Positions 22,198 to 26,430 of a stretch of 64,000 nt of DNA are shown here, piece after piece. The stretch is from NCBI RefSeq assembly GCF_017876755.1, contig NZ_JAGIOO010000001.1:5069786-5133785 (forward strand). Direction: 5' to 3'. Numbering within the stretch: the first letter of the stretch is position 1; every line of letters starts with the position of its first letter. The stretch is from Crossiella equi (lineage in GTDB: Bacteria > Actinomycetota > Actinomycetes > Mycobacteriales > Pseudonocardiaceae). The position numbers and the translations under genes are program-made. The notes beneath the pieces are model-generated. The model saw only the letters and a program-made list of their open reading frames with translations. It was not told the DNA's origin and made no database searches.

Positions 22198-22238
22198 CAC
22201 CGCGGGCCCGGCCAGGACCACTGGCCGGGCCCGCGGTG
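22198..22238. terminator. Strong terminator of the dnaK operon
   Basis: A perfect 17-bp GC-rich stem (22198-22214 with 22222-22238) with a 7-nt loop lies 30 bp after the hspR stop. There is no T-run. Confidence 0.85.
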
Positions 22239-22294: not shown

Positions 22295-22300
22295 TACGCT
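22295..22300 (+). promoter_or_regulatory. Candidate -10 element for the metG leader
   Basis: TACGCT (TAnnnT) ends 6 nt before the ATG of the Met-rich leader, so transcription could start at or next to that ATG and give a leaderless leader peptide. No good -35 is evident. Confidence 0.4.
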
Positions 22301-22306
22301 CTTCCC

Positions 22307-22381
22307 ATGCTGAGGACGTGCGACAGCATGACCATGCGCAGCCGGATGATGATGGTCTCCGGCCTCCTCCGCATGTCCTGA
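22307..22381 (+). CDS. Met-rich leader peptide upstream of metG (putative)
   Basis: A 24-codon frame between the dnaK-operon terminator and metG. Seven of its 24 residues are Met, at positions 1, 8, 10, 14, 15, 16 and 23, including a run of three consecutive ATG codons. It precedes the gene that charges tRNA-Met, exactly the arrangement expected of a translational-attenuation leader. Its 3' end (22361-22369, GGCCTCCTC) is perfectly complementary to GAGGAGGCC at 22391-22399. The peptide itself probably has no function; ribosome pausing on it would be the signal. Confidence 0.6.
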   Translation: MLRTCDSMTMRSRMMMVSGLLRMS

Positions 22382-22449
22382 TCCATTGCTGAGGAGGCCC
22401 CCACCGGCGGCCCCTCACCGGGGCCGAGGCGAACAACCGGCCCGGGGCC
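22361..22449 (+). promoter_or_regulatory. Candidate attenuator structures between leader and metG
   Basis: A 9-bp perfect stem (22361-22369 with 22391-22399) overlaps the end of the leader frame. A 7-bp GC stem (22408-22414 with 22420-22426) follows. Two GGCCCC copies (22396-22401, 22409-22414) and two GGGGCC copies (22420-22425, 22444-22449) allow alternative pairings. The last GGGGCC directly abuts the metG ribosome-binding site (AGGAAGG, 22450-22456). Control could act on translation or Rho access, since no U-run is present. Confidence 0.45.
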
Positions 22450-22461
22450 AGGAAGGTAGCG

Positions 22462-23979
22462 ATGAGCCGCTACAACGTCATGACATCCATCCCGTACGTC
22501 AACGGGAAGCCGCACGTGGGGCACGCGCTGGAGCTCATCCAGGCCGATGTGCTCGGGCGGTACCGGCGGCAGCGGGGGGATGAGGTCCGGGCCCAGACCG
22601 GCACGGATGACAACGCCCTCAAGAACGTCCAGGCCGCGGAGGCCGAGGGGATCACGGCCGCGGAGTACGTCGAGCGGGTGGCGCAGAACTTCCTCAAGCT
22701 CGGGGAAGCCTTGGAGCTGTCCTTCGACGACTTCATCAAGACCAGCTCCGACCCGCGGCACAAGCCCGGCGTCGACAAGCTGTGGGCGGCCTGCGCGGCA
22801 CAGGGCGACTTCTACCGGAAGTCCTACTCCGGCCTGTACTGCGTCGGGTGCGAGCTGTACTACAGCCCCGACGAGCTGGTGAACGGCAAGTGCCCCGAGC
22901 ACGGGACCGTGCCGGAGATGGTGGAGGAGAGCAACTGGTTCTTCCGCCTGTCCAAGTACCAGGACCAGCTCATCGAGCTGATCAGCTCGGACAAGCTGCG
23001 CATCGAGCCGCCGCACCGCAAGCGCGAGGTGCTGGCCTTCATCGAGTCCGGGCTCGAGGACTTCTCCGCCTCGCGCAGCATGGCGCGGGCCCGCGGCTGG
23101 GGCATCCCGGTGCCGGAGGACCCCGAGCAGGTCATCTACGTGTGGTTCGACGCGCTGGCCAACTACATCACCGCGCCCGGCTACGGCACCGACGAGGCGG
23201 GCTACCAGCAGTGGTGGAACCCCGACGTCGAGCAGGTGCACGTCATCGGCAAGGGCATCATCCGGTTCCACGCCGTGTACTGGCCCGCCATGCTGATCTC
23301 CGCCGGGCTGCCGCTGCCGTCGACGATCTTCGTGCACGAGTACCTGACCGCCGGTGGGCAGAAGATCAGCAAGTCCCTGGGCAACGCAGAGGACCCCGCC
23401 GACATCGTCGCCGCCTACGGCAGTGACGCGGTGCGCTGGTGGATGCTGCGCGACGTGGCCAAGGCGGGCGACACCGACTACACCGCCGAGCGCCTGGTGG
23501 CCCGGGCCAACGAGGACCTGGCCAACAACATGGGCAACCTGGTCAACCGGGCCGTGTCCATGGTGCGCAAGTACCGCGACGGCGTCATCCCGCCGGTGGC
23601 CCAGGACAACCCGGCCGCCGAGGCGCTGCGCGCCGCGCGGAACGAGGCCGCCGCCGCCATCGACGAGGCGCTGGCCAACTTCGACTTCCGCCGCGCGGTC
23701 GAGGCCGTCGCCCGCATCGGCGACGAGGCCAACCGCTACGTCGAGGCCACCACCCCGTGGGCGCTGGCCAAGGCGGAGAAGAAGGAGGACGCGCCCCCGG
23801 CCGCCCTGGACGCGGTGCTGGCCGAGCTGGTCGCCACTGTCCGGGACCTGGCCGAGCACCTCACGCCGTTCCTGCCCGCGGCCGCCCGGCGCATCGCCGA
23901 GCAGGCGGGCGACGGCGGTGACGTGGTCGCCGAGCCCAAGCCGGTGTTCCCGCGCCTGGAGCTGGCCCCGGCCGAGTGA
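22462..23979 (+). CDS. metG: Methionyl-tRNA synthetase
   Basis: A 505-residue class I synthetase. It has a HIGH-type motif (KPHVGHAL), a zinc-knuckle region (YCVGCELYY ... GKCPEH), a tryptophan-rich core and a KMSKS-type loop (GGQKISKSLGN). The C-terminal tRNA-binding helical domain ends without the extra dimerisation domain found in E. coli. It charges tRNA-Met for initiation and elongation. The ATG at 22462 follows AGGAAGG. It is preceded by a Met-rich leader frame and faces a flavohemoprotein gene. Confidence 0.97.
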   Translation: MSRYNVMTSIPYVNGKPHVGHALELIQADVLGRYRRQRGDEVRAQTGTDDNALKNVQAAEAEGITAAEYVERVAQNFLKLGEALELSFDDFIKTSSDPRHKPGVDKLWAACAAQGDFYRKSYSGLYCVGCELYYSPDELVNGKCPEHGTVPEMVEESNWFFRLSKYQDQLIELISSDKLRIEPPHRKREVLAFIESGLEDFSASRSMARARGWGIPVPEDPEQVIYVWFDALANYITAPGYGTDEAGYQQWWNPDVEQVHVIGKGIIRFHAVYWPAMLISAGLPLPSTIFVHEYLTAGGQKISKSLGNAEDPADIVAAYGSDAVRWWMLRDVAKAGDTDYTAERLVARANEDLANNMGNLVNRAVSMVRKYRDGVIPPVAQDNPAAEALRAARNEAAAAIDEALANFDFRRAVEAVARIGDEANRYVEATTPWALAKAEKKEDAPPAALDAVLAELVATVRDLAEHLTPFLPAAARRIAEQAGDGGDVVAEPKPVFPRLELAPAE

Positions 23980-24019: not shown

Positions 24020-25192
24020 TCAGTCCAGGGTGAACGGGTCGTACCGGATGCGGTCCAGCGGCGTGCCCGCCACGAGCATGCGGGAGACCGTCGCGCGGAT
24101 CATCGCGGGCGAACCGCAGACCAGCACGTCCCGGTCGTTCCAGGCCCCGTAGCGGGTGACCACGTCGGCCAGCGTGCCGTGCTCGACCCCCCGTGCGCCC
24201 GGGTCGCTCTCCAGCACCGGGACCACGGTCAGCCAGGGGTTGCCCATGGCCAGGCGCTGCAGGGTGTCCAGGTCGTACAGGTCGCCGCGGGTGCGGCCGC
24301 CGACGAACAGGTGCACCTTCGGGTTCTCGCCGTAGGCGGCCATCTCGTCGAGCATCGCGCGCATCGGCGCCACGCCGGTGCCACCCGCGACCATGAGGAT
24401 GTCGCGCTTGCTGGAGCGGTCGATGCCCATCCGGCCCATCGGCGGGCCGATGCGCCAGGTGTCGCCGATCTGGGTGTGGCCGACCACGGACCGGCTCACC
24501 CAGCCGTTGTTCACGGCGCGGATGTGGAACTCCATCACGCCGTCCGGGCTCGGCGCGTTGGCGGGCGAGTAGTACCGCCACAGCCTCGGGCGCTGCGGGG
24601 TCTCCACGCTCAGGTACTGGCCGGCGCGGTAGGGCACCGGGTGGTCCGGCTTGACCCGGACCACGGCGAGGTCCCAGCTCAGGCGCTGGTGGTCGATCAC
24701 GCTCGCGGTCCAGAAGGCAGGGTTGTCGTCGGCCGCGGCGGCCTCGAGCATGGTCTGGGCCATGATCGTGTAGGCCTCGGCCCAGGCCCGTTCCACGGCC
24801 GGGGTCCAGGCGTCCCCGGCGAAGCGCTTGATCGCGGCCAGCAGGGCGGTGCCGACGGCCTCGTAGTGCGCCGAGACCACACCGAACTTGCGGTGGTCGC
24901 GACCGAGCTGCTTGAGGAAGGGCACCAGGTCGTCCGGGCGGTCCACCATCTGCACGACGTGGACGAGGGCGCGCAGAAGCCGGCTGCGCTGCACCTCCAT
25001 GTTGGCCGGGAACAGCTCGCGGGTCTGCGGAGCGAGGCTGAAGAGCATCCCGTAGAAGAACTGGGCTACTTCCTCGCTCCGCGGCTCGACGACCGCGAAG
25101 CTCTCGCGGATCAGGCGCACCATCGCGGTGACACCAGGCGGCGGCTCCCGGTGAGGGGGCGGGGTCGGGTTGAGCACGGCGTTCGCGGTCAT
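24020..25192 (-). CDS. Flavohemoprotein-like globin/FAD/NAD(P)-binding protein
   Basis: A 390-residue protein. Residues about 20-160 form a globin domain (the proximal-His region is KFGVVSAHYEAVG). It is followed by an FAD-binding module (RLWRYYSPANAP, matching RxYS) and an NAD-binding module (AGGTGVAPMRAML, C-terminal CGSPAMI). The architecture is that of flavohemoglobins, which are NO dioxygenases; M. tuberculosis Rv0385, next to clpB, is a likely counterpart. The start was set at the ATG of MTANAVLNPTPPP because the upstream frame has no similarity. The Shine-Dalgarno signal is weak and distant. Confidence 0.87.
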   Translation of the reverse strand: MTANAVLNPTPPPHREPPPGVTAMVRLIRESFAVVEPRSEEVAQFFYGMLFSLAPQTRELFPANMEVQRSRLLRALVHVVQMVDRPDDLVPFLKQLGRDHRKFGVVSAHYEAVGTALLAAIKRFAGDAWTPAVERAWAEAYTIMAQTMLEAAAADDNPAFWTASVIDHQRLSWDLAVVRVKPDHPVPYRAGQYLSVETPQRPRLWRYYSPANAPSPDGVMEFHIRAVNNGWVSRSVVGHTQIGDTWRIGPPMGRMGIDRSSKRDILMVAGGTGVAPMRAMLDEMAAYGENPKVHLFVGGRTRGDLYDLDTLQRLAMGNPWLTVVPVLESDPGARGVEHGTLADVVTRYGAWNDRDVLVCGSPAMIRATVSRMLVAGTPLDRIRYDPFTLD

Positions 25193-25425
25193 AGTCCGGG
25201 CGCAGTCTTCTCCACGTTGTTCGATACGCCCATGCGACGTACCGATGGTGACCAGCATCCCCCGACAGAGTGCGACATTAACCCCTCCCTCGGGCCTGCG
25301 GTCACTTGATGCCACGTTCGAGTGCAAATTGCTTACTGCGTGTGTACATGTGCCCCGTCCGTGAATCCACCATAGGCGGGGCGATGTGCGAGACCACACC
25401 TCCTCGTGACACGGTGGGCAGCGTG

Positions 25426-26430
25426 ATGCCCGACACTCCCGTCCCGACCGGCACCGCCGATCCTGACTTGCTGCTACTGGAGCTGTCCGATTCACCGGCC
25501 CGTGTCACTTCGGTGGCGGCGGTCGTACCCGGTGATCACACACGGCAGCAGGCCGTCACGTCCAGTGCGCCGCACGAGCAATCCGCAGGCGTGATACGCA
25601 GCGCGACGAACGGTCCGGACAATTCAGCCGCGCTTACCCGCCAGTTGGACGCTCCGACCAGGCTGATTGCCCGTCCGGCGCAGCCGGGACCGCTCGGCGC
25701 CGATACCACGAGGCGCATCGAGCTGCCGCCGAGGGACCTGGTCGGACCGGCCGAACCGCTGCCCCTGCCGGACGCGTCGCCGCTGCCCCAGATGGATCCG
25801 CTGCCCCAGACCGCCGGTATGCCCGGCTCCCAGGGCGAGCACCTGTTGCAGCAGGCCTACGGCACCGAGACCCGTGCCGCCCGCTTCTACTCCGACCAGG
25901 TCCTGGACCACCTGAACCCGGAGATGCGCGAGTTCACGGCCCGGATGGAGATGCTGTTCGTGGCCACCGCGGACGGCCACGGTGAGTGCGACTCCTCCCT
26001 GCGCGCGGGCCCCAAGGGCTTCGTCCAGGTGCTCGACGACAAGCACGTGGCCTACCCCGAGTACCGGGGCAACGGCGTGCTGGCCAGCCTCGGCAACATC
26101 AGTGAGAACCCGCACGTGGGCCTGCTGATGATCGACTTCGTCAGCGACCTGATCGGCCTGCACGTCAACGGCCGGGCGCGCATCGTCGAGGACTCCGACC
26201 TGCGCGAGGAGCACCCGGACCTGCCCAGCGACTTCGAGCGCGGGCGCACCCCGGAGCGCTGGGTGGTGGTCGAGGTCGAGGAGGCCTACATCCACTGCCG
26301 CAAGCACATCCCGCGCATGATGCCGGTGCTGCGCGACCGCGACTGGGGCACCGACGACGTCAAGCGCAAGGGCGGCGACTACTTCGAGGCCAAGGCCATG
26401 CCGAAGCCCTGGCGGGAAACCGACGGCTGA
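25426..26430 (+). CDS. Pyridoxamine 5'-phosphate oxidase-related (PPOX) FMN-binding protein
   Basis: The conserved part (from about residue 135) begins HLLQQAYGTETRAARFYSDQ. It contains the PPOX split-barrel signature FVATADGHGECDSSLRAGPK, VLDDKHVAYPEYRGNG and GLLMIDF, and ends with CRKHIPRM. Such proteins bind FMN or F420/haem and act on small redox substrates. The N-terminal ~130 residues are Pro/Thr-rich, probably disordered, with looser codon bias. The true start is uncertain: ATG 25384 or 25819 are alternatives. It is divergent from the flavohemoprotein gene, so a shared redox or NO response is possible (inference). Confidence 0.72.
   Translation: MPDTPVPTGTADPDLLLLELSDSPARVTSVAAVVPGDHTRQQAVTSSAPHEQSAGVIRSATNGPDNSAALTRQLDAPTRLIARPAQPGPLGADTTRRIELPPRDLVGPAEPLPLPDASPLPQMDPLPQTAGMPGSQGEHLLQQAYGTETRAARFYSDQVLDHLNPEMREFTARMEMLFVATADGHGECDSSLRAGPKGFVQVLDDKHVAYPEYRGNGVLASLGNISENPHVGLLMIDFVSDLIGLHVNGRARIVEDSDLREEHPDLPSDFERGRTPERWVVVEVEEAYIHCRKHIPRMMPVLRDRDWGTDDVKRKGGDYFEAKAMPKPWRETDG

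Follow-up and report, generated by a model that had tools for sequence, protein, structure and literature searches.

The locus raises the question of why a short reading frame crowded with methionine (Met) codons lies ahead of metG, the methionyl-tRNA synthetase (MetRS) gene of Crossiella equi, and whether this frame could report on the charging of tRNA-Met. The window, i.e. the whole stretch of 64,000 nucleotides (nt) that was analysed (contig NZ_JAGIOO010000001.1, positions 5,069,786 to 5,133,785), carries metG on the plus strand at 22462-23979 (505 amino acids; TIGR00398, 447 bits with a cut-off of 336), with dnaJ and hspR upstream of leader and gene. The leader frame, MLRTCDSMTMRSRMMMVSGLLRMS, runs on the same strand from an ATG at 22307 to a TGA at 22379-22381, leaving 80 nt between its stop and the metG ATG (22462). 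It encodes 24 residues including seven Met (codons 1, 8, 10, 14, 15, 16 and 23), three of them consecutive, as had been described in an earlier note made from the sequence alone. The interpretation offered there, leader-peptide attenuation through Met codons on metG, is supported by our comparison of loci. We consider it likely that the region is a ribosome-mediated attenuator in which the Met codons act as sensor of Met-tRNA charging.

Relatives were gathered by a contig scan of GTDB (best 80 loci), from 150 relatives and from 394 genomes of the class. Among the matches listed, the nearest relatives with this metG belong to Crossiella sp. (L001, L002). Most of the actinobacterial loci with this type of MetRS have a Met-rich frame, which ends roughly 65-115 nt 5' of the gene. 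The leader type RMM..SGLLR.S (SGL type) is found in Crossiella, Frankia and two metagenome-assembled genomes (MAGs); Actinorugispora has a form related to it. MMPR.RG is the type of Streptomyces, Actinomadura, Micromonospora, Catenulispora and others, MMRP..G..VR that of genomes of f34 and others, and Nonomuraea exhibits MMAP or MMTP. Frankia leaders differ in length by multiples of three. In the four Crossiella copies the leader is 97-100% and the spacer 85-100% identical, compared with 53-80% for the DNA ahead of the promoter. Outside the genus, a match of at least 50% identity turned up in only about 10 of the 85 genomes of the family. Hence the leader follows one MetRS clade and not the family.

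In a wide scan, 91/128 loci of this MetRS type had a small frame with adjacent Met codons (Met-Met) upstream; the 128 contain duplicates and 15 loci from outside the actinobacteria. Such a frame was seen in 0/28 loci with another type of MetRS and in 2.1% of the 2560 dinucleotide-shuffled sequences. A second search asked for a frame of 7-40 codons at 6-7 nt behind a TAnnnT box, Met not being required, in 99 non-redundant actinobacterial loci. Such a frame (9-28 codons) was found in 85 of them; all 85 contain an internal Met and 69 contain Met-Met. The same box search gave 0/28 in the loci of other MetRS types, and wrong box spacings gave 0, 0, 1, 0 and 2 of 99 (frames with internal Met counted). 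Six of the controls (L072, L075, L078, L079, L097, L099; 46-50% identity) had been assigned to the control group after no leader was seen in them; the count is 0/22 if they are removed. Moreover, the Met-Met frame is absent at five housekeeping MetRS copies of leader-bearing genomes (L220-L224). All these counts refer to sequences and not to independent events, several genera supplying near-copies. Loci devoid of Met-Met often retain one Met at the same place, e.g. MTTCLVMTSP (L064), MISPTRRMIPRLRGC (L066) and MTQRTLPTMRPSAGLTGVR (L134). The 14 loci missed by the box search include five with a Met-Met frame but no box at the set spacing (L006, L092, L095, L101, L128), and two whose leader lies beyond the position limits (L017, L049). 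Another (L100, in G025) has a truncated gene; here an SGL-type leader at ~1219-1290 precedes a metG that has no N-terminal part. Taken together, the leader is a short frame rich in codons for the amino acid of the downstream gene, as expected of leader-peptide attenuators, and the sensing half of the proposed device is well supported by the comparison of loci.

How the leader would be transcribed and translated is indicated by its upstream flank. A -10 box TACGCT (22295-22300, plus strand) is located 6 nt 5' of the leader ATG; a -35 box was not recognised ahead of it. TAnnnT precedes an in-frame ATG or GTG by 6 or 7 nt in 72 of 77 Met-Met leaders, compared with 2, 9, 12, 7, 3 and 3 of 77 at other distances (L100 with its truncated metG, L137 with a wrongly picked frame, L056 and L073 were left out of this set). 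As frames begin 6-7 nt after the box in 85/99 loci versus 0/28 at other MetRS types, the leader is probably leaderless with a transcript starting at or next to 22307. A start downstream of 22381, named in the earlier note as speaking against its proposal, is unlikely in silico given the same spacing. A promoter and terminator scan of the window found neither sigma-70 hexamers nor U-tract terminators. Since it targets just these, its null result says nothing on the TAnnnT box. Further upstream, the strong terminator claimed by the earlier note is there as a long hairpin (22198-22238), albeit one that has no U tract.

The RNA between leader start and metG can be divided into four putative segments, all on the plus strand. 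The core of segment 1, GCCGG at 22341-22345, is located immediately 5' of the Met run and may pair with CCGGC at 22359-22363; an outer 5' arm of this protector hairpin 1:2 (22313-22322) finds its partner at 22370-22379 in the predicted fold of 22307-22416. Met codons 14-16 (22346-22354), the proposed stall site, lie 15, 12 and 9 nt 5' of segment 2. Segment 2, GGCCTCCTC (22361-22369), is the perfect 9-bp reverse complement of segment 3, GAGGAGGCC (22391-22399), a pairing already seen in the earlier note. Segment 3 may instead pair with segment 4, GGCCCCTC (22409-22416), with one bulge; 2:3 and 3:4 are mutually exclusive in the window. An alternative partner of segment 4, which is not followed by a U tract, is GGGGCC at 22420-22425. 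The two GGCCCC tracts (22396-22401, 22409-22414) and two GGGGCC tracts (22420-22425, 22444-22449) named in the earlier note are present, and the last one abuts the metG ribosome-binding site AGGAAGG at 22450-22456 (22444-22456 altogether). The GGGGC at this place hardly varies among the leaders of the SGL group, and its complement GCCCC occurs in segment 3.

The distance between Met codons and segment 2 is kept in most leaders. Met codons are found about 12-18 nt before segment 2 in 74/77 leaders. For the SGL type, 19/19 leaders have a Met codon at a distance of 12 or 15 nt on the 5' side of segment 2, and for the remaining types the first base of the Met pair precedes the start of segment 2 by 13-18 nt in 55/58 (L046, L050 and L144 were not fitted; L100, L137, L056 and L073 were left out). 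Given the size of a ribosome footprint, a ribosome waiting at these codons would cover segment 1 and just leave segment 2 free.

Frame, conservation, promoter spacing, possible stems and the spacing from Met to segment 2 are read from the sequence; stalling, switching and induction are what we infer, and so is whether 3:4 ends transcription or limits translation in Crossiella. Transcription would begin at or beside 22307 and a ribosome would start translating the leaderless frame. When elongator Met-tRNA runs low, it would wait at Met codons 14-16 and cover segment 1, such that 2:3 pairs, 3:4 is blocked and metG is expressed. If Met-tRNA is ample, it would reach the stop codon and cover segment 2, whereby 3:4 could form and metG output would drop. 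With no translation at all, 1:2 and 3:4 would form and metG would remain low. MetRS would thereby set its own level through the charging of tRNA-Met.

The stems were evaluated by folding and by alignment. The region 22361-22425 alone folds into 2:3 with -35.6 kcal/mol (z -3.5, 0/200 shuffles as good) and the whole leader 22307-22416 into 1:2 plus 3:4 with -48.3 kcal/mol (z -2.7). Shuffling of single sequences, a blunt test with rows L100 and L137 left out, finds 3:4 outstanding on average in every leader group (mean z -1.6 to -3.5), the window's own row excepted. Three alignments were built, namely A1 (SGL type, 19 distinct rows), A2 (MMPR and similar, 25 rows) and A3 (MMRP and similar, 14 rows). 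In A1, 1:2 is paired in 82%, 2:3 in 87.7% and 3:4 in 84% of cells; in A2, 1:2 (94%) and 2:3 (99.2%) are near-invariant and 3:4 is paired in 94%, and in A3 the value for 3:4 is 87%. Doubly changed cells of 3:4 amount to 11 (A1), 6 (A2) and 15 (A3), each number being reached by 0/500 shuffles. In the 45 leaders fitting the stem pattern, the 10 nt after the stem have a T content of 34% versus a background of 16%, a partial enrichment in other actinobacteria.

Several observations weigh against the attenuator. A U tract after the 3:4 hairpin is missing in the window, as is any terminator in the scan mentioned above, so that the leader is not classed here as a transcription attenuator with intrinsic terminator. 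In the window, the energy of the 3:4 hairpin (-21.4) does not stand out from that of its shuffles (-20.9). Folding of 22341-22416 alone allows the 1:2 core and a shortened 2:3 to coexist, hence their exclusion depends on the outer arms. The energy of 2:3 is outstanding in some rows only and unremarkable in many Frankia and Nonomuraea rows, and 2:3 does not covary beyond shuffles in A1 and A2. Stricter counts for 3:4, which depend less on relatedness than cell counts (pairs with double change, further pair types), are not above shuffles in A1, A2 or A3; the number of pairs with double change is reached by 183 (A1), 92 (A2) and 149 (A3) of 500 shuffles. The cell counts may therefore partly reflect relatedness. 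Sliding the A2 stem 3:4 by one column still yields 5 doubly changed cells compared with 6. Moreover, among the 99 loci no leader was found at Kutzneria (L010, L011, L012, L088), L014 and L026. On these pair counts the covariation is only moderate, and 2:3 appears conserved rather than covarying. The check proposed in the earlier note, whether Met run and competing stems persist in relatives, is largely passed even beyond Pseudonocardiaceae, in so far as both are conserved; it falls short in the covariation, which 2:3 does not show. The switching half of the attenuator rests on conserved, moderately covarying stems.

Could the same sensor act on translation in the leader group of Crossiella? 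Alternative folds would then hide or free the metG ribosome-binding site while transcription continues. The missing U tract and the weak 3:4 hairpin of the window fit such an output, and so does the near-invariant GGGGC before the ribosome-binding site with its complement in segment 3. However, the predicted fold of 22380-22461 is no better than shuffles (z -0.93) and pairs the last GG of GGGGCC-AGGAAGG in short stems only. Relatives with U-tract terminators exist, and Streptomyces lividans leaders that are called attenuators often have no U tract (PMC8079986). We regard a translational output as possible, if somewhat less than probable.

The more distant explanations dispense with the sensor. 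The Met codons could be a by-product of stems in a structured RNA that binds tRNA, S-adenosylmethionine or a protein, an idea favoured by the conserved stems and by T-boxes occupying the same place in some Chloroflexota relatives. In contrast, an Rfam search of the window region yielded no family near its gathering score, T-box RF00230 included, and 15 leader loci gave no match. Moreover, the distance between -10 box and start codon is maintained, the frame is uninterrupted up to its stop, and the length changes of the Frankia leaders respect the reading frame. We hold such an RNA to be very unlikely. A chance origin, i.e. an ATG-rich stretch in GC-rich DNA that has no regulatory role, would be compatible with a single frame in a single genome. 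A less strict scan, which asked for Met-Met or for five Met within 400 nt, did match 4/45 MetRS loci taken as controls from Alphaproteobacteria and Chloroflexota (L164, L166, L179, L208); on visual inspection, these matches are in part the ends of genes lying upstream. The comparison with controls near zero versus 70-90% in this MetRS type contradicts chance, which we deem hardly credible.

The attenuator reading can be followed into other phyla. The leaders of the alphaproteobacterial loci L073 and L069 have AMMMPLSIPEAEFFGM and STMVMSLSTQEAEPVGM at their ends; a GC stem with T tract comes next, and the leader segment GGAAGCGG matches CCGCTTCC of that stem. Both loci (L069 1291-1430, L073 1310-1445) belong to second MetRS genes and represent the cleanest transcriptional form, in which a leader rich in Met and stem segments that match are combined with a distinct U-tract terminator. 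In Chloroflexota, L056, L193 and L201 have Met-rich frames ahead of U-tract stems. A U-tract terminator is hence present in L056, L069, L073, L193 and L201. Other members of the wider clade carry T-boxes. Two on the minus strand exceed the gathering score of 93 (L196 2970-3253, 107.5 bits; L198 3182-3487, 101.1 bits), while L191 1103-1458 (88.8 bits, E 5e-20) and L199 2977-3269 (minus strand, 80.5 bits, E 7e-18) remain under it. Judged from these loci, T-box and Met leader in Chloroflexota relatives of the wider MetRS clade represent an apparent swap of charging sensors. In this class a relative of at least 45% identity was found in 13/149 further genomes, with a Met-rich leader in 2/11 usable ones (L194 and L200 being cut or misplaced). 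A search of 190 genomes gave a match above 46% identity only in the query's own genome.

In a quick tree of 102 MetRS the leader label needs 8 changes compared with a shuffled mean of 28.7; L017 and L049 were labelled as none though a leader is present, and L197 and L141 were too short and left out. The group that Crossiella forms with Frankia, Actinorugispora and two MAGs (97, starred) is joined next by Kutzneria (91, not starred), where the search revealed no leader; the same-family copies L014, L026 and L016 are placed elsewhere. The tree fits a horizontal spread of gene plus leader, which it does not prove.

In each of five Crossiella genomes (G000-G004) a single place exceeds the TIGR00398 cut-off, so metG at 22462-23979 is the sole MetRS in Crossiella by this search. 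Among 16 further genomes, at least two places exceed it in 11 (G022, G030, G034, G059, G062, G067, G073, G089, G099, G113, G139) and a single one in five (G025, G033, G037, G070, G112). A second genome set has one place in Frankia canadensis (G537) and in G535, and two in G532, G533, G534, G536 and G538. Adjoining metG, a flavohemoprotein-like protein is encoded on the minus strand (24020-25495), well below its family cut-off.

A broader picture may be drawn tentatively, and we hold it to be rather doubtful as a whole. The Met-tRNA-charging attenuator would travel with one mobile MetRS clade, would have swapped places with T-boxes and, in Crossiella and Frankia, would have come to control a MetRS that is essential and the only one. 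As a leaderless frame whose own translation requires initiator Met-tRNA, the leader might give a band-pass response, such that a moderate shortage induces metG while a severe one halts leader initiation and turns metG off.

A covariance model built on leaders of the MMPR type (R1) was run against the 394 genomes of the class and matched in 192 of them, mostly weakly. Inspection of 30 loci revealed ATGATG followed by a CCCC/GGGG stem in five, four at this metG and one (L240) elsewhere. The latter, in G177, shows ATGATGCCCCG..GGGG as stem, away from a known metG. The window's own leader has no R1 match among the matches listed, which include only part of the four in G000. This search, which is both unspecific and insensitive, gave no evidence of other genes under the same control.

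If true, a widespread Met attenuator on metG would show that ribosomes can read the charging state of tRNA-Met. In actinobacteria it would moreover serve as a natural reporter of MetRS inhibition or of a shortage of Met-tRNA, and the gene family would be one whose T-box and leader-peptide sensors substitute for one another.

Leader-peptide attenuators are textbook knowledge for several amino acids, and Met is an awkward case since its codon also starts proteins. Vecchione and Sello (2010, cited in PMC4787780) reportedly described an auxiliary tryptophanyl-tRNA synthetase gene of Streptomyces coelicolor under an attenuator with leader peptide. The metG leader resembles it as a leader peptide with cognate codons before a synthetase gene, often of a second copy. 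It differs by reading Met instead of Trp and by preceding the only MetRS over the cut-off in Crossiella and F. canadensis. The T-box (RF00230) likewise senses tRNA charging before synthetase genes and precedes other genes of this MetRS clade; in contrast, it binds tRNA directly, involves no leader peptide and has no match at the window.

Closer counterparts are known from Streptomyces. For S. lividans TK24 the leaders leuL, trpL, alaL, thrL and metL are described in PMC8079986, most of them leaderless and several having no clear U-tract terminator. The first four precede leuS, trpS, alaS and thrS, and metL before metNIQ was proposed as methionine-dependent. All share with the metG leader a short frame with cognate codons before a synthetase or amino-acid gene. 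Unlike the metG leader, metL has two internal Met and precedes a transporter, and a metG leader is not found in the passages covered. In Streptomyces, leuS and trpS have candidate attenuators composed of leader peptide, antiterminator and terminator, which resemble the metG leader by placing a leader peptide before a synthetase gene (PMC1262725). The same source finds no conserved RNA structure ahead of the methionine operons of Actinobacteria. A word search of PMC4833913, PMC2965389 and PMC13236596 gave no mention of metG. The earlier note knew of no description of a Met leader on an actinobacterial metG, and apart from the metNIQ proposal we likewise found none in the literature searched, most subscription papers lying outside the search, so that an earlier description is possible. 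Within this literature, the proposed Met-reading attenuator before a MetRS gene is known in kind and new in place.
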